Positions 10,786 to 63,480 of a stretch of DNA of 64,000 bases are shown here, piece by piece. This stretch comes from Eublepharis macularius (Eukaryota; Chordata; Lepidosauria; Squamata; Eublepharidae): the NCBI RefSeq assembly GCF_028583425.1, contig NC_072806.1:31914001-31978000 (forward strand), given 5' to 3'. A program made the position numbers and the translations under genes. The stretch's first letter is position 1. Each line of letters opens with the position of its first letter. Below the pieces are notes generated by a model, which did no database searches, was not told the DNA's origin, and was given only the letters and a program-made list of their open reading frames with translations.

Positions 10786-11044
10786 CAGGGCTTTTTTTCT
10801 GGGAAAAGAGGTGGTGGAACTCAGGACTGCACAATGACGTCACTTTGGGTCAGCTGGAACAAGGGGGGAGTTTTTGAAAGTTTAAATTGCCCTCGGCGAA
10901 AATGGTCACATGGCCATGCGGTGTGGAGGGCAATCTCAACTCCCCTCTGTCCGGAGATCAGGGGGCGGGGCCACCAGCTATGTGACCATTTTCAAGAGGT
11001 GCCGGAACTCCTTTCCACCGCATTCCTGCTGAAAAAAAGCCCTG
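10786..11044 (+). mobile_element. hAT MITE family A, copy 2
   Basis: Ends CAGGGCTTTTTTTCTGGG and GAAAAAAAGCCCTG. The target duplication is worn. Inner arms GGTCACATGGC / GCTATGTGACC fold back. Confidence 0.85.
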
Positions 11045-16112: not shown

Positions 16113-16618
16113 GTGAACAACAACAACAACATTCGATTTATATACTGCCCTTCAGGACAACTGAACGCCCACTCAGAGCGATTTACAAAGTGTGTTATTA
16201 TTATCCTCACGGCCAGGGCTTTTTTTCAGCAGGAACGCGGTGGAACGGAGTTCTGGCACCTCTTGAAAATGGTCACATGGCCGGTGGCCCCGCCCCCTGA
16301 TCTCCAGACAGAGGGGAGTTGAGATTGCCCTCTGCGCCGCAATCTGAACTCCCCTCTGTCTGGAGATCAGGGGGCGGGGCCACCGGCCATGTGACAATCT
16401 AAACTCCCCTCTGTCTGGAGATCGGGGGCGGGGCCACCGGCCATGTGACCATTTTTGCCGAGGGCGATTTGAACTTTAAAAAACTCCCCTCTTGTTCCAC
16501 CTGACCCAAAGTGACGTCATTGTGCGGTCCTGAGTTTCACCACCTCTTTTCCCAGAAAAAAAGCCCTGCTCACGACAACCACTCTGTGAGGCGGGTGGGG
16601 CTGAGAGAGCTCAGAGTA
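16113..16618 (-). mobile_element. tRNA-derived squamate SINE, split by a hAT MITE, inside TRPV1 3' end
   Basis: 16113-16213 (CATTCGATTTATATACTGCC ... GTTATTATTATCC) and about 16569-16618 (CAACCACTCTGTGAGGCGGG) are one SINE interrupted by 16214-16568. The right part supplies codons of the TRPV1 tail. The tRNA head is missing. Confidence 0.85.
16214..16568 (-). mobile_element. hAT MITE family A, copy 3, in the TRPV1 terminal exon
   Basis: Ends CAGGGCTTTTTTTCAGC and GAAAAAAAGCCCTG with 8-bp duplications CTCACGGC / CTCACGAC. It contributes about 17 codons and the stop of the TRPV1 frame. Confidence 0.9.
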
Positions 16619-16788
16619 AAACATGTTTAAAAAACTGAACAAAGAGTTGCAAAATGATACAAACTTTGGGAGCGACTTCTTCCGGGCCCGTTGGTCTTCT
16701 GAATCCAAGTCATCTTCTGAAATGGGCTTGAGTGAGCCTTCTCGCTTGCCATCCCGCAACATCGGAACCAAAGTCTTCCAGTTTTTCC
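16517..16788 (-). CDS. TRPV1: TRPV1 terminal coding exon 15, with mobile-element-derived tail
   Basis: Begins after TTTCAG with [18 protein letters not shown], matching chicken [15 protein letters not shown]. At KKSLPK the chicken protein ends in SV-stop (from memory); here the frame reads F-V-Ser with TCA at 16655-16657 where a TGA would be expected. It continues 46 codons to TGA at 16517. The first 13 extra codons look like old 3'UTR; the rest are antisense tRNA-SINE (16569 to about 16616) and hAT MITE (16517-16568). The splice acceptor and frame are well supported. Whether this tail is made, or another 3' exon is used, cannot be told from DNA. Confidence 0.85.
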
Positions 16789-19700
16789 CTGAAACTTTGA
16801 TTGAAACCGGCTTTTAAAACTGCTTCGGTCCTCCAGTTCTAACATCCCGCTCCGCCCACCTCATCGTTTTCTTTGGAAAAAATGATGCCAGTATCTGCGG
16901 TTCAAGTAACAACGGACTCACGTGTCCCTTTCCTGGCATGGCAATTACAGGATGGCATGTGCCCCCAGAACTACGTTTTGTAAGGTGCACAGGTTGGAGC
17001 TTGCTGGTGAAATACAGTGTTTTGGGGGGAGCATCTTGTTGCAGAGCTTTGTTAATGGCAGTGGCTATCCAAAGCAAAAGCCATTTCGACGTGGCCAGTC
17101 TTGGAGTGATGCAGGTGAGCTTGGGCTCTTGAAAAACGGGTCAGGAGCTAGATTTGCCCTGAGCCACTTGGGCAAGGCTGTGGGGTGGGAAGCAGCAGGC
17201 CAAAAGCCCACGTGCCACTGCCACCCTGCCAAAATGGCTGGAAGCCAACTCTCATGATCACAGGTACTGCTCAGCCACACCCCTCTCCCCTTATAAACAG
17301 GGCCGGCTCACTCATTGAGGCCAGGGAGGCGGTTGCCTCAGGGCATGGGGTGCTGGAGGAGGCACCGGGAGCGGAAGTGCATGCCATGAAGCTGCAGCCA
17401 CCCAGCCCTCCTGCCCCGTGCTGCCGCCGCCACCAACACACACCCCCGGCTGGGCGCAGCAGGAGAGCTGGGAGGCCACCCACGCGCCATCCCAGCCACC
17501 CGCCGCAGCAATTGGGCCAGCTCGTGCACACGCCCATGAGGACGTCACACGTGACGTCATCACGCAGGCTGGTGTTTCTGTGCACGTGTGCGCACGTGCA
17601 CAGCCGGCCAGCCGGCCACGGGTGCTGGAAATCCTGGCGCCGCTCCTGCTTATAAAACGGGGAGGGCAGACAGCATCGCTTAGACAATTGGGTTTGGTTC
17701 AGGGGATCACCAGCTGCTGACCTTGATTCTAAAAGTTAAAAATAAAACCAAGCACAAAGTGGCATGGAAGAATTGGGCTACTTGCCAGTGGTGACATCAC
17801 TGGTGTTGTCCAATAGGAGGCCATGACACCCAGATTGCACAGGCGTCATGGTAGCAACACATGACACTGTGTTTGTGTGTGCTTGCATATGAGTGTTCTT
17901 TTCTTTTACAGATTCTGGTGTAAAAATGTTATGAGTTGAGTGTTGGGGAAATGCATTTTCCCAGCAAGGGAAGGGAAGAATTCTGGATTCCCCACAGGAG
18001 CTGAGTAACGGATGTGCTTTGTTTCCTCTACCGACAAAAGTACAGAAAGGGCCTCCCTGTCCAAGCAGGACAAATACCGTCTCCTTGAATGTTTCCATCT
18101 TCCTCACCTCTCCCATACTTAAAGGCAAAACTGAGGTTGCGTTTCAGCTCTTCGCTGTATCCGCCAGGGTCTTCGTTGATACCCAGGTTGGTGTTCCATG
18201 TGGACCAGTTCACCTCATCCACCCTGTTAAGGAGAAAAAGACACCACCATTTCTGCCTGTTGCCATCCCAGGAAGTTAACCCTTGCTGCAGCCCAGAAAT
18301 AAGATGGCAGAGCAAAAGCCAAGAGAGAGTACACAATGGTTTGTTTCCCACAATATGTTACTGTCTTGTGTGACCAACACAGGATGGAGATAAGGAGGAA
18401 GAACAGGTGGCGTTAGGGTTGCTAACCCCCAGGTAGTGGCTGGAGATCTCCTGGAATTGCAACTGGTCTCCAGGCCACAGAGATCAGTTCACCTGGAGAA
18501 AATGGCTACTTCTGGGGGTGGACTCTATGGAATTATGCCATGCCAAGGTCCTTTCCCTCTTTAAATCCCACTCTCTCCAGGTTTCACTCCCCAGATCTCC
18601 AGGAATTTCCCAACTTGGAGCTGGCAACCCTAGGTGGAGTTACACAAATAGGCCTGTTTGTTACAAGGCCACCAAAGGCAAGATGTGAGTTTCTCTCTGT
18701 CTCCCAAAGGCCCCCGCAAGTGCAGTAGCTGGTTTGGGAAAAGCAAACCTGGAGGCTGTGTTTGCTTCGGGCCAAAAGGGAGCAGGGTAGGCTGGGAAAG
18801 CAAGGCCCAGACCCTGCCCCCCCTGCTCAGTCTCTTGGCTACCGCTTCAGTGATGGACAGAAAGAGGAGGTGTAACCCCTATGAGGTCATTGGTTTAGCC
18901 CATTAGGACAAAGCATGTAGCTAGAGCCGGGCAGCTGAGGAAGAAACTAGTTGTTGGGGAGCTGAATAATAATTAATATGCTCTTATCACCTTGAATAAG
19001 GGCTGTCATTCCCCAAGAAGAGGACAGAAGCCTGGGTTCCAGTTGCATCAAATTCAGGGACGGAACTAGGGTTGCCGGCGCCCATGGCAACCCTAGTCCA
19101 ACCCTTCACGCGCTCTCGGCACTGCATAATGACGTCACTTCTGTGACGTCACCATGCAGGGCGGAGCGTGCTGCCCGCATGGTGCACCGGTGGAGGCAGC
19201 GTGTGGGGCTGGGAAGCCGCCTGCGCCATTTGCCTCCCCACAGGACAGGGGGCAGCCAGCCGCCCCCTGTCCTGCGGGGCAGGCAAATGGCGTGGGCGGC
19301 CTCGCAGCCCCCTGCGCTGCCTTTTGCCTGCCCCGCGGGACAGGGGGCGCGCGGCAAGCGCCCTGGTGGCGCAGGGGGCAGACTACCTCCCCTGCCCCTC
19401 CCTCAAGCCGGCCCTGTTCAAATTGGAAGGATTGTGAAAAAGGACTGGATCACTTGGTGAGTTCTGACAAGTTGAACTGTTTACCTTTTAAAATACATGG
19501 TTGGCTTTGAAAGTGTATGGTTGCGCTTATGAGTTTAGTTAAAGAAAAAAAATAGTTGCCTTGTATTAATTGTTTAAAAGTTTAATTTTTTCCCCTTAAC
19601 TTACACTTGTGTGAAAGTTTGCCTCCTAAGCCCCATAGAACCCATACAAAGAGAAGTTACAGAGGTATAGGAGCGGGACTCTTGGTTCCACGCATCTTCA

Positions 19701-34700: not shown

Positions 34701-37700
34701 ACAGGTGGTGGATCACTCTCCCACTCAGCAGTGGCCCGATCTTGACAATTTTGGGCCCCTTTTCAGCCATTTTCAGCCCCTTTTTGCCATTTTGGGCCCA
34801 ATTTCGGCCCTGAATGGCCAGGGTTGGGTCCAAAACAGCCAGGATAGGTGATGCCAGGGGGTGTGGCATATGCAAATCAGTTATGCAAATGACACACTTC
34901 CGGCGATGGCAAGGGGCATGGCATATGCTAATGAGTTATGCTAATAAGTTCCTCCAGCTCTTTTTCTACAAAATGACCCCTGGCTAGACTCAACTTCCAT
35001 CTATGGCGACGAGATTACAGATCTTGTGAAAGGCCCCGCTTATTTAATTCTATCATTTATACCATTATATCATTTACATCATTTCTCCCCGATGGGAATC
35101 CCAAGAGGCTTACCCGTATCTTCCCAGTCTTTGCCGCGAGGGTCAGCGGTGCCAGTCCTCGGCGGTTGGTGATCTCTTCCAGCTTGAGGGTCGGGTTCTT
35201 CTTGGCTCCCAGGATGAGGATGTCATTGTACATCTTGGTGACAAACTTGGTGTTGTCTTCCGTGTCATCAGCGATCTCGACCAGTGCATGCAGGACTGTG
35301 TTACCCATGGAATCCTGAGCAGCGATATTGGCCGGATGGTAGGGATTCTCCAGAAGGTATTTCACTATGTTGAGCTGGTTGGTGCAGGCTGCCAAGGAGA
35401 GAGGAAGTTCGCCTAACGGCATACAAGGTGGACTGTTACACAGGGACACAATCCAGGCTCCCAGGGCTTTTTTTCTGGGAAAAGGGGTGGTGGAACTCCG
35501 TGGGTTGCCCTGGGAGAAAACAGTCACATGGCCGGTGGCCCCGCCCCCTGATCTCCAGACAGAGGGGAGTTAAGATTGCCTTCCGCGCCGCTTGGCGGCG
35601 CGGAGGGCAATCTCAACTCCCCTCTGTCTGGAGATCAGGGGGCGGGGCCACCAGCCATGTGACCATTTTCAAGAGGTTCTGGAACTCCGTTCCACCGCGT
35701 TCCAGCTGAAAAAAAGCCCTGCAGACTCCCACTTTGGTGTCTCCGCTACTCATACCCACCATCCCATTTATGGTTACTGAAGGTATCTCAGTCCCGACAT
35801 TTCGACACAAAAAGCCCCATTTTATTTCACTTCTCCCTTGTGCAAATTAAACTTACAAGATTTTAATTTTGCACCGTTTTCTGTTTCCCGTTTCATTTTA
35901 GCCATTTTCAAATGTCATTTTTGCACCCGTCGCACATAAATGGCATTAAAAACGAGCAGTACGGGAGCAGCAGCGAAGAGAAAGGGGCAAAGTGAAAATG
36001 CTAACAATGACAAGGTAGCCATTGAAAAAGGAACGAAGGTGGGGAGATTTGCTCATCTCGACTTCTGCACGGAGTCCTACCAAAATAAAATCCTGGCCTC
36101 CCTTTGGTCTTCTGGAAGAACTCGCCGTGGGCTCTTGCTTGGACATCTGCCCCATTCTTGACCAGCAATTTCACCAAGTAGATGTTTCGTCTTTCAATGG
36201 CGATGTGGAGTGCAGTCTGACCTAAAAAGTCACCCGTTAGAGGACACACAGGAGGTGTGATAGAGAGGCACCAATTGAAATGACATTTATTCCATGGCAA
36301 AATGACCAAAGAACACTCCCACGAACAAGTTTTGACATTTTCTGGGTATGCAGCAGTGTTCGCTGGGGGTGTGGGGTGGGGAGGCAGTTGTGAATTTCCT
36401 GCATTCTGCAGGGGGTCGACTAGATGACCCTCAATGTCCCTTCCAACCCTATGTTTCTATGATTCTAAGTACAGGCACCACCCATTTATAAGAACAAATT
36501 AATTAATAGATTGAAAAATGAAATCCTGCCCTCAAGTCATAGTTGACTTATGGCGCCCCCTGGTGGAGTTTTCATGGCAAGACACTGAGATGGTTTGCCA
36601 TTGCCTGCCTCTGCAAGCTTTGTCTTCATTGGAGGTCTCCCATCCAATTACTAACCAAGGCCAAGCCTGCTTAGCTTCTGGCAAGATCAGGCTCTCCTGG
36701 CCTAGCTGGAAATGGTAGGAATTGAATGGGGAGCCTTCTGCCTTCGTAACATGCCTTCTGCTACTGAGCTATGGAGCTTCCCAACCTGAACGATGCTCAG
36801 CATGTATTCCTATCAACACCTCCCAGCTACCTTTGTAGTAGTTGTCTTTGTACTCGGAATTCACAAACTCTTTCAGATTTTCGGTTTTCTCCGCAATCTC
36901 CAGCAACACAGGAATCGTGTCATTCTGGCCTCTGTGCAGATTCAACATGGCTTTCAAGAGGCAAGTTTTCCCAGTTTCTGGTTCTGTAAACACAAGTACA
37001 AGCATAGCAATAAGCAGGGATTTTTTTCTGGGGAAGGAGGTGGTGGAAACACAGTGGAATAGAGTTCCGGCACCTCTTGAAAATGGTCACACGGCTGGTG
37101 GCCCCGCCCCCTCATCTCCAGACAAAGGGGAGTTTAGATTGCCCTCTGTGCCGCTGGAGCAGGGCTGCTGGAGCGGCACGGAGGGCAGTCTAAACTCCCC
37201 TCTGTCTGGAGATCAGGGGGCGGGGCCACCAGCCATGTGACCATTTTCAAGAGGTGCCGGAACTCCGGTCCACCGTGTTCCAGCTGAAAAAAAGCCCTGG
37301 AATAAGAAGGCAGCACAAAGATACTCTGCCACTAAAGTTAGCAACCTCCAGGCCAGACTTGGAGTTCTCAACAATAATGATGTAAAGAAACACATTTATT
37401 GGAACACCAATGTCAAACAGTGACAAAAAGAATTAGGCTAACAACAACTTACGGAAACAAAAAGAGACAAAAAAGGGCAGAATATGTACATTCCCAACAG
37501 CAAAGGAGGCCCTGTCAGATTCCCTTCTTATGCCCTTGAGGTGTCTTCTCCTGTGAACAGCTGGGGGACACTGAAGGTTTTGTAAAGGCCTGCTGTTCAT
37601 TGCTGAGCAGGAGGAGGCCGGAGCCAACGGGCCATATCAGCACTGAGCTTTTGGACCCTGGCTGACCATAAAATGCTGCTCTCTTGTCAAAATGAATTTC

Positions 37701-45224: not shown

Positions 45225-45483
45225 CAGGGCTTTTTTCTGGGAAAAGAGGTGGTGGAACTCAGTGGGTTGCCCTCGGAGAAAATGGTCACATGGCTGGTGG
45301 CCCCGCCCCCTGATCTCCAGACAGAGGGGAGTTGAGATTGCCTTCTGCGCCGCCAAGCGGCGCAGAGGGCAATCTCAACTCCCCTCTGTCTGGAGATCAG
45401 GGGGCGGGGCCACCAGCCATGTGACCATTTTCAAGAGGTTCCGGAACTCCGTTCCACCACCTTCCAGCTGAAAAAAAGCCCTG
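45225..45483 (+). mobile_element. hAT MITE family A, copy 9
   Basis: CAGGGCTTTTTTCTGGG ... GAAAAAAAGCCCTG; duplication CTCTTATG / CTCTTACG. Nearly the same inner sequence as copy 6 (central GCGCCGCCAAGCGGCGC hairpin), so probably the same subfamily. Confidence 0.9.
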
Positions 45484-60275: not shown

Positions 60276-60670
60276 TTACTGCCTGTGTAGCATCACCAAG
60301 GCGGCCCCCACTGCGGCGTCCATGTCTTTCCCATAAACCACAGGAAAGGGGTACATCTTCTCTACTTCCTGCCTCAACACTTCGTTCCTGGAGAGTGCGC
60401 TGCCGCTGGCCAGGATCCGCTTTGCCCCCATCTCCAACAAGCGCTCGGAAGGCAACATGGAGTTCAGGTTCTGGACCACGCCACGGCACAGGGCTCGAGT
60501 CACGTGCCCCAAAGAGAGGTCAGAGGCCACGATGTCCGTCACGGAGCCTCGCTGCTCGGGGACGTGCCTTTCGCCAAAGACGGTTGGGCGAATGGAGAGA
60601 GCGGTGTCGGCTTGGGCCAAGGCGGCTTGTATAGCTCGCGGGAAGAGGACCGAATGTGGGACTTCGAGTC
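60276..60670 (-). CDS. SHPK: SHPK last coding exon
   Basis: Acceptor TTGGCAG at 60671-60672. Encodes LEVPHSVLFPRAIQAALAQA through PTVFGERHVPEQRGSVTDI, LGHVTRALCRGVVQNLNSML, the nucleotide-site-like GSALSRNEVL and DMDAAVGAALVMLHRQ-stop. Confidence 0.96.
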
Positions 60671-63480
60671 CTGCCAATAAACACGCCGAGAAAAGAAATC
60701 AAGAAAGGACAGGGCAGAACTTCGTGGCTGGAGAGATGAGGCATAAAATAAACAGACAGGGCTGGTTAATCCAGAGGGGAACAGGATGCCCTAGAGGGAC
60801 CGGGCCTTGGACTGGAGGGAAAGTTCAGCTACGAAGACCAGTTTGTCTATAACAACATCCTGTAAAGACACGGGTTTTAGAAAACAGGCCTCATCTCTGA
60901 GAAGCCAGCTGGGTGACCTTGAGTCAGTCCCAGCTTCTCGGAGCTCTCTCAGCCCCACCCACCCCACAGGGTATTTTGTTGTGGGGATAATCATGCCCGC
61001 TCTGAGTGGGCATTAAGTTGTCCTGAAGGGCAGTATATAAATCAAATGTTATTATTATTAAGATTACACCTAGGAAAAGGGGCCTAGAAGAGGCCACAGA
61101 AGCGTGTGCAGTTTTGAAATCCAAAATGGCTGAGCAATCACAGTGTCTCTACACATTACGAAGTACCTCAGGATGCTCAAGTGAACCTCATTTCATGTGC
61201 CCCCCCCTCCAACTTCCCATGCTCTCTCAGTTCCACAATCACACTTCAATTTGCTCCCTGTCAGTACATTCATATAACCAGGGGTCATTTTGTAGAAAAA
61301 GAGCTGGAGGAACTCATTAGCACAACTCATTAGCATATGCCACGCCCCTTGACAACACCAGAAGTGTGTCGTTAGCATAACTGATTTGCATATGCCACAC
61401 CCCCTAACATCACCTATCCTGGCTGTTTTGGAGCCAATCCTGGCCATTCAGGGCCAAAATTGGGCCCAAAATGGCAAAAAGGGGCTGAAAATGGCTGGAA
61501 AAGGGGCCTAAAATGGTCAGGATTGGGCCGCTGCTGAGTGGGAGAGTGATTCACCACCCGTCAGAGGCCCAATCCGGGCCGTTTCGACCCCAATCCAGGC
61601 TGAAACGGGCCCCAAATGGCCAAGAGTCAGGTGGGTGGGGCCACCTGACATGTGACCTCTTTGGGGAACTGCCGGAACTGCATTCCGGCACGTTCCCCCT
61701 CAAAATGAGCCCTGCATGTAACTGCTAAAAGTATCCCAGTTTCTAAATAAATACAAATTGGCAAGTCAAAGAAGCCCACAGTACTGTTTCTCACACTGAA
61801 AAGCGAGCTGAGTTGGCTCTCTGCACTCAAAGATGCAATCGCACAAAAGGAGCTCCCATGAAAGCGGTATGCACGTGCGCCGAGCAAGAACTGAGGACCA
61901 CACATAAAATCCTGCACTTGAGCATACCCATGTAATTTGCAATGTATAGGGAAACTGTCAATTATGAGCCACATTCATGTGCCCAACCCCAGTCCTGCCC
62001 ACTGTACCCGAATCCTGCCCTCCCTTCAAGAAGGCATACGTGGTGCCTGCCCCACATCCTTCTCACCACCAGAGCCAACCCACAAGCTTCACAGGCAAAT
62101 TGGGATTTGAATCCAGGCCTGCATAGTTCCAGTATGGCCCTCCCTGTAGTACATCATGCTGGCTAGAAAGGCACTGTGGGAGGGGAATTGGGGTTCGGGG
62201 AGGCCAGGAAGGGGTGGCCGAGCCGAGCCCTCTTCCCTCCAGCCAAGAGGCAGTGCAGATACAGTAATTGTGGGTGGAGGAAGGAGGAGGCAAGAAACTA
62301 AATAAATGACTTAATAGCATCCAGCCCATTAAGCACTTGAAATGGTAATAAAGCTGGAAAAGTAATTGAAAATCCTCATTAACGCGGTCTTTCAAGGCTC
62401 CGCTAAAAGCAGAGAGGGGGGCTGTTCTATGGTTTAGGGAAGATTTAGATGTTTACCTTCAAAAAAGCCTTTTTGTTGGGATTTAAACCACAAAAAGAAA
62501 AGGGGGGGATCCAACTGATTAGTCCCAACAACCCCTTCTCCCCTGCAAAACACTCTGGGGAGAGGATGCTTCGGAGAGGAGAAAAGGGCCAGAGGAGAGC
62601 TTGCAAATTATGCATTTGAAAGTGAACCCTCCCTTTTCCAGGTCTGTGCCTGGCAGACCAGGTCCTGAAAAAGGCAACCGTTCTGGAGGGCGGGAAGGGG
62701 CGGGGCAGATGTTCACCAGGAAATGGACTGAAGGGTTGAAGTCTGCCTTGCGCTGCCTCTCTGGCGAAAAACGGCTCCTACCCACAGCGCTTTGGAAGAG
62801 AGAAGAGGCTGTCAGGTCTTCCTTGTACATAGCTGAAGGTCGCTGGCACTTCCCATTTAGCTGTTCACTGAAACGAGCCCCCCCCCCCCCCGCAGTGCCT
62901 TTTCAAACCCACCAGCATTGCAAGACCAGGATCGCCCCTCCGTACACATGAGAATCCCAGCTCGGCAAAGGAAACTGGCTAGTGGTAGATTTGGCACAGA
63001 TGAACGAAAGGAAGCCCTTCTTCTGCAGGGCAATGCTGTTGCAAAAGCGCCTCCCCAATAAGCAGGGGCTGAATCCAAGCAATAGGGGTCTGGCCCTCAT
63101 CCTTTGCTTGCCAACTCCCCAGGGAACCGGCTACTGGTAAGGACAGAGCACTGGATCTTGGTCTGATCTGGCAAGGACGTTATTTTGGCAGAAGCTGAAA
63201 ATCACTCTTTACGTTGCTCCTCGCAATCTCCTGCCCACTGCCACTCTAAGCCCTTGTCTCCCCCCTGCAAATACTTTACCCAACTCAGCCATCCATTCAG
63301 CCAACATGTCCACAAATGTCGCCAGGACATTTCCGCCGTTAAGCGAGGCTGCCACGGCCAGATAGCGGTTGCCAAAATACGGAAAGTAGGCCACAGGCGA
63401 ACAAGGGTCCGGAGAGTCTCCTGGCTGGAAGCCAAAGGGTGCCTGCATGGTGAGCTGAGCAGAAGTGCCAAAGTTGAGGA
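60276..63480 (-). CDS. SHPK: SHPK sedoheptulokinase, last two coding exons (partial gene)
   Basis: Sedoheptulokinase (CARKL) is a cytosolic FGGY-family kinase that phosphorylates sedoheptulose to sedoheptulose 7-phosphate with ATP, feeding the non-oxidative pentose phosphate pathway. Two exons (63280-63480 and 60276-60670) join in phase (G|GA) across a 2.6-kb intron. They give the C-terminal kinase lobe: NFGTSAQL, VAYFPYFGNRYL, SLNGGNVLATFVDML, then SDLSLGHVTRALCRG, GSALSRN and DAAVGAALVML before the stop. The protein ends six or so residues earlier than the human one. Upstream exons are off the right edge. Same strand and order as human TRPV1-SHPK. Confidence 0.96.
60893..61060 (+). mobile_element. 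tRNA-derived squamate SINE, 5'-truncated, in the last SHPK intron
   Basis: AGCCAGCTGGGTGACCTTGA, TAAGTTGTCCTGAAGGGCAG and ATAAATCAAATGTTATTATT; the tRNA head is absent. Confidence 0.8.
61145..61947. mobile_element. Long MITE with TACCTAGGGA ends, copy 3, split by hAT family B
   Basis: Left ACACATTACGAAGTACCTCA, right GCACTTGAGCATACCCATG, with family inner blocks on both sides of the hAT insertion at 61279-61714. Confidence 0.8.
61279..61714 (+). mobile_element. hAT MITE family B, copy 4
   Basis: CAGGGGTCATTTTGTAG ... CTCAAAATGAGCCCTG with duplication CATATAAC / CATGTAAC. Confidence 0.9.
61948..63279. other. SHPK intron, remainder; nothing recognised
   Basis: No further exons are seen on the minus strand; the joined phase of the two flanking exons makes a missing exon unlikely. 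Confidence 0.5.
63280..63480 (-). CDS. SHPK: SHPK penultimate coding exon
   Basis: Encodes LNFGTSAQLTMQAPFGFQPG, then PVAYFPYFGNRYLAVAASLN and FVDMLAEWMAELG. Acceptor CTCCTAG, donor GTAAAG. The GTSAQL stretch is a conserved loop of the FGGY kinase fold. Confidence 0.95.

Follow-up and report, generated by a model that had tools for sequence, protein, structure and literature searches.

The 64,000-nucleotide stretch of the Eublepharis macularius genome analyzed here (contig NC_072806.1, positions 31,914,001 to 31,978,000 of the forward strand; hereafter the window, whose own numbering is used throughout) carries a gene for TRPV1, a sensory channel for heat and pain, on its minus strand. The coding region (16517-41031) comprises 15 coding exons and reads through 878 codons with no internal stop, and the frame of the last exon stays open for 46 codons past the point at which we would expect the protein to end. 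The best reading, which we hold to be probable, is that a single base change in an otherwise intact TRPV1 turned a stop codon, TGA or TAA, at 16657-16655 into TCA, and that the frame has since then entered former 3′ untranslated region (UTR), the remnant of a short interspersed element (SINE) and a hAT-type miniature inverted-repeat transposable element (MITE).

The TRPV1 gene in the window

The coding parts of TRPV1 were located via reading frame, homology and splice sites, with joins picked to fit the TRPV1 protein, and in the scripted join from ATG 41031 to TGA 16517 all 14 introns are GT-AG and the exon phases are consistent. The gene is intact as judged by its ankyrin repeats, membrane segments, pore GMGD and TRP domain, all of which lie in frame within the 878 codons. 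The scripted model includes a short exon between S2 and S3 (28684-28614, minus strand). The identity of the gene was examined by a search of solved structures with a hand-joined TRPV1 protein as query, which was without one short exon and differed from the final model at a few joins. Among the best 60 of 74 matches, the top 20 were TRPV1 chains, one of them carrying the name Osm-9-like TRP channel 1, and TRPV4, TRPV2 and TRPV3 ranked below these. The five solved chains whose alignments were printed match query residues 8-479 and about 472-757 of 832. The gene has no look of decay, and pseudogene decay as the cause of a stop loss is ruled out, as 15 of 15 exons are in frame.

Two differences from the solved TRPV1 chains were seen, at 18223-18108 and 31667-31491 (minus strand). 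The gecko protein is one isoleucine short relative to the sequence NTNVGIINEDP of the five printed chains, a conserved stretch, and at the end of exon 6 it has SSETP vs SSSETP.

The last exon and the make-up of its tail

The last coding exon (16517-16794, minus strand) begins at the acceptor ...atcaaag/TTTCAG, with a second possible acceptor six bases further in, behind TTTCAG, that would keep the frame. It reads VSGKNWK ... KKSLPKFV, continues with SFCN to ...RTAQ, and ends at TGA 16519-16517. The 46 added codons occupy 16520-16657 on the minus strand, from TCA 16657-16655 through CAA 16522-16520. The first-pass annotation, made from the letters and open reading frames, had described a frame open past KKSLPK to TGA 16517 and an extension of 46 residues, and we obtained the same coordinates, frame and length; the tail peptide it gave is correct as far as it goes and omits the last six residues, KLRTAQ. 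As that annotation also held, the frame ends within a MITE nested in a SINE; we place the MITE at 16568-16214 and can add that the SINE is truncated.

The last exon alone had no match among solved structures up to an E value of 10, and among prokaryote genome contigs its peptide found no vertebrate orthologue, as is expected of such a collection; the one locus returned there (20 residues at 50% identity in a bacterial metagenome genome) was taken as chance. The pore exon found no loci among viral contigs, where no vertebrate orthologue is expected.

The tail is made up of 13 codons of unique T-rich sequence, about 16 SINE codons and about 16 codons of the hAT-type MITE. The unique part, presumed to be former 3′ UTR, lies at 16617-16657 (minus strand) and was delimited by its composition and by BLAST matches (E 1e-3) elsewhere in the window, which start at 16619. 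The left piece of the SINE, which is probably of the tRNA type and is in frame with TRPV1, lies at about 16569-16616, and its right piece, beyond the MITE and a copy of the target-site duplication, at 16117-16205 (right end approximate), both on the minus strand and both recognized from other copies in the window, to which the left piece is 80-90% identical. The copy in TRPV1 consists of the 3′ part alone, and the tRNA-like head is absent. In six of seven other SINE copies aligned there is a GTAG(T/C)GGTTAAGAG, mostly followed by GGTTTGATT or a sequence near it (by eye), and we presume that these two correspond to the A and B boxes.

The MITE (355 bp, 16214-16568, minus strand) was inserted inside the SINE, and its first 49 bases supply the stop as well as the 16 codons before it. 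It has perfectly complementary 14-bp terminal inverted repeats, inner arms that form a long hairpin, and a flanking 8-bp target-site duplication, the left copy of which (GTCGTGAG, 16569-16576, minus strand) and the right copy (GCCGTGAG, 16206-16213, minus strand) agree at seven of eight bases. From the length of this duplication and the CAGGG ends we take the element to belong to the hAT superfamily. Its family is dense in the window, where full and partial copies occur in both orientations and show internal deletions (examples are at 10786-11044, 25389-25104, 35462-35721, 45225-45483 and 57126-56800); the closest long copy is that at 10786-11044 (93.8% over 130 bases and 93.0% over 128), and the longest match is that at 57126-56800 (78.9% over 369 columns). 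Within the element in TRPV1, 16269-16398 contains 60-nt arms that are 97% complementary and 10 nt apart, as well as a repeat of roughly 55 bp that is absent in such form from the nine other copies aligned.

Restoring the empty site in the SINE, by taking out the MITE together with one duplicate of the target site, would give an extension of 88 codons. The MITE therefore closes the frame and does not open it, and we reject it as the origin of the open stretch; the tail is a by-product of the sequence that lay downstream and not a creation of the MITE.

Upstream of TRPV1 in the window, an open frame on the minus strand (60279-60698) that contains SVTDIVASDLSLGHVTRALCRGVVQNLNSMLPSERLLEMGAKRILASGSALSRN resembles the last exon of a gene that we take to be SHPK, which presumably lies upstream of TRPV1 in other amniotes as well.

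The presumed former stop codon

We infer an earlier stop at 16657-16655 (minus strand) from two observations. Chicken TRPV1 ends in SLPKSV-stop, and the SLPK-x-V of the gecko frame aligns well with this end, its V adjoining the TCA codon. In addition, the T content rises from 18% in the body of the exon to 55% in 16663-16617, with a sharp shift at 16663. The shift fits a transition from coding sequence to UTR; this supports, without proving, that a stop once stood here. The first-pass annotation had proposed a change from TGA to TCA. Its stop loss into 3′ UTR, SINE and hAT MITE is also the reading we favor, with the amendment that TAA to TCA fits equally well, as TGA and TAA are each one transversion from TCA.

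Several considerations weigh against a stop loss at this site. The position of the former stop is taken from the chicken C-terminus, and the alignments of the solved TRPV1 chains stop at query residue 757 of 832, short of SLPK. The acceptor of the last exon, at 16795, has a pyrimidine tract that is weak by eye, and it is conceivable that another terminal exon is used. Finally, the whole claim hinges on one base. We regard the extension as a correct observation and an event of an ordinary type in an interesting gene, the key step of which, the change of one base in one former stop, is presumed.

The dependence on one base leads directly to the alternative that survives best, namely that base 16656 represents an error of sequencing or assembly, or a rare allele of the single animal sequenced, and that gecko TRPV1 ends at SLPKFV. 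A false gene fusion arising from replicated assembly errors has been reported (PMC4494051). The assembly appears good, however, with no N in the window and a clean 878-codon TRPV1 frame, and we consider this explanation unlikely.

The length of the tail does not in itself call for a special explanation. We considered stop triplets in every frame of the minus strand of the window, leaving out the TRPV1 coding exons and the last 600 bases; loss of the stop would give at least 46 codons in 369 of 2575 cases (a fraction of 0.1433; median 15). A length of 46 codons is ordinary, and chance gives it in about one case in seven. The 46 residues have a mean hydrophobicity of 0.18; among 9687 open 46-codon stretches with their start on the minus strand outside the TRPV1 coding exons, 27% are at least as hydrophobic. 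By these two fractions, neither the length nor the average composition of the tail is unusual.

Consequences for the channel and known systems

If a single substitution removed the TRPV1 stop at 16657-16655, the ribosome would continue through 13 codons of the old 3′ UTR, about 16 codons of SINE remnant and about 16 of MITE to the first in-frame TGA, and the resulting tail would hang off the end of the cytosolic C-terminal region of the channel. The stretch from 16664 to the new stop contains no AATAAA, ATTAAA, AGTAAA or TATAAA poly(A) signal, and thus the transcript may well include the tail, which might then be translated; further downstream, such hexamers appear first at 16142 (TATAAA), 15908 (ATTAAA) and 14134 (AATAAA). 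With C as its next base (16519-16516, minus strand), the new TGA stands in a leaky stop context, and readthrough would add 49 codons up to the next stop.

We suspect that the tail is most likely tolerated or neutral, or mildly destabilising, the latter because it starts with a hydrophobic part: hydrophobicity peaks in the 19 residues that follow SLPK, with a mean Kyte-Doolittle value of 1.0. Long, hydrophobic nonstop extensions have been linked to a lower protein level (PMC11502859; PMC12817085). That serine replaces the stop in TRPV1 counts against a strong effect, as serine is the mildest of the three PTEN stop replacements described (PMC11502859) and is commoner in benign extensions (PMC12817085).

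It is feasible that the tail is real in the DNA and seldom made, either because most transcripts have a different terminal exon or poly(A) site or because the hydrophobic tail triggers breakdown of the protein. The weak acceptor at 16795 and the hydrophobicity of the residues after SLPK would be in keeping with this, as would the very stable hairpin that the MITE RNA is predicted to form at and past the new stop (371 nt including the duplications, -220.4 kcal/mol, z -15.2, more stable than all 100 shuffles). The average hydrophobicity over the 46 residues is ordinary, however, and serine at the stop site is the mildest of the three PTEN replacements, and we think that such a failure to be made is slightly less likely than an error or rare allele.

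We give little credence to the idea that the tail is a functional addition that was selected because it alters the gating, trafficking or anchoring of TRPV1. Changes to the C-terminus of TRPV1 are known to shift its heat threshold (PMC10175561, PMC11864123), and a C-terminal truncation lowers it (PMC10175561). A structure model of the 91-residue last-exon peptide places one long helix at residues 31-62, followed by two strands, but the model was built from the single sequence without an alignment (mean pLDDT 66.6, pTM 0.32) and carries little weight.

Comparison with the consensus of each element, taken as the majority of its other copies, provided no sign of selection on the element-derived tail, in tests of divergence and synonymy that draw on few sites and have low power. 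The SINE differs from its consensus at six of 48 positions in the tail and at eight of 89 in the other part (gap columns, 0 and 0, excluded), and the MITE at one of 45 in the tail and 17 of 259 in the other part (4 and 48 gap columns excluded). Pooled, divergence is 7/93 inside the tail vs 25/348 outside (Fisher P = 1.0), which argues against a selected tail. Four of the seven differences in the tail are synonymous, as selection might lead one to expect, but neutral simulations (six settings) gave three or fewer nonsynonymous differences of seven in 10 to 20% of runs. The phrase "transposon-built tail" of the first-pass annotation was overstated: unique sequence accounts for the first 13 of the 46 codons, removal of the MITE would lengthen the extension to 88, chance gives such a length in about one case in seven, and the element-derived part bears no sign of constraint. 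In a bolder scenario the tail is fixed and translated, and its hydrophobic stretch rests on the membrane and alters the surface level of the channel or its heat threshold, as a natural counterpart to the vampire-bat case described below; this we would likewise rate as very improbable.

Least likely of all is that the long frame is older than it appears and lineage-wide, the coding end having long lain beyond SLPK, as this is at odds with the sharp composition shift at 16663 and with the SINE and MITE ends that fall within the tail.

Should the tail prove to be both fixed in the species and translated, a much-studied sensory channel would clearly have taken up non-coding and mobile-element sequence, and at an end of the protein whose alteration is known to move the heat threshold. 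Should it not, the locus would usefully illustrate that one base, considered without reads or relatives, can mimic an innovation. A search of titles and the beginnings of abstracts in the open-licence literature returned no report of this TRPV1 extension, and none is mentioned in the available passages of PMC9664204, PMC7116210, PMC3322131, PMC11864123 and PMC10175561.

Loss of a stop, with extension of the C-terminus, has been described as a way in which non-coding sequence becomes coding (PMC4494051). In that study, 54 such extensions are reported in Saccharomyces, nine of them by point mutation, and 28 in Drosophila; one yeast addition is 70 residues long, and mouse and rat cases are cited from Giacomelli et al. 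(2007). The TRPV1 tail resembles the yeast and Drosophila extensions (PMC4494051) in kind, and their lengths are of a similar order, whereas it differs in being mostly mobile-element remnant and in being known from the DNA of one genome. It shares with human nonstop variants (PMC11502859; PMC12817085) the presumed single-base loss of a stop and the hydrophobic stretch in the added tail, and unlike those variants it comes from one genome sequence. As in the accounts of transposable elements in vertebrate genes (PMC7786948), element sequence lies in a protein-coding frame, but in TRPV1 this came about without new splicing, at the 3′ end of the last exon. With the vampire-bat TRPV1-S, gecko TRPV1 shares a changed C-terminus; the bat form, however, is a truncation produced by splicing and is active at about 30 vs 40 degrees C, whereas that of the gecko is an extension (PMC11864123).
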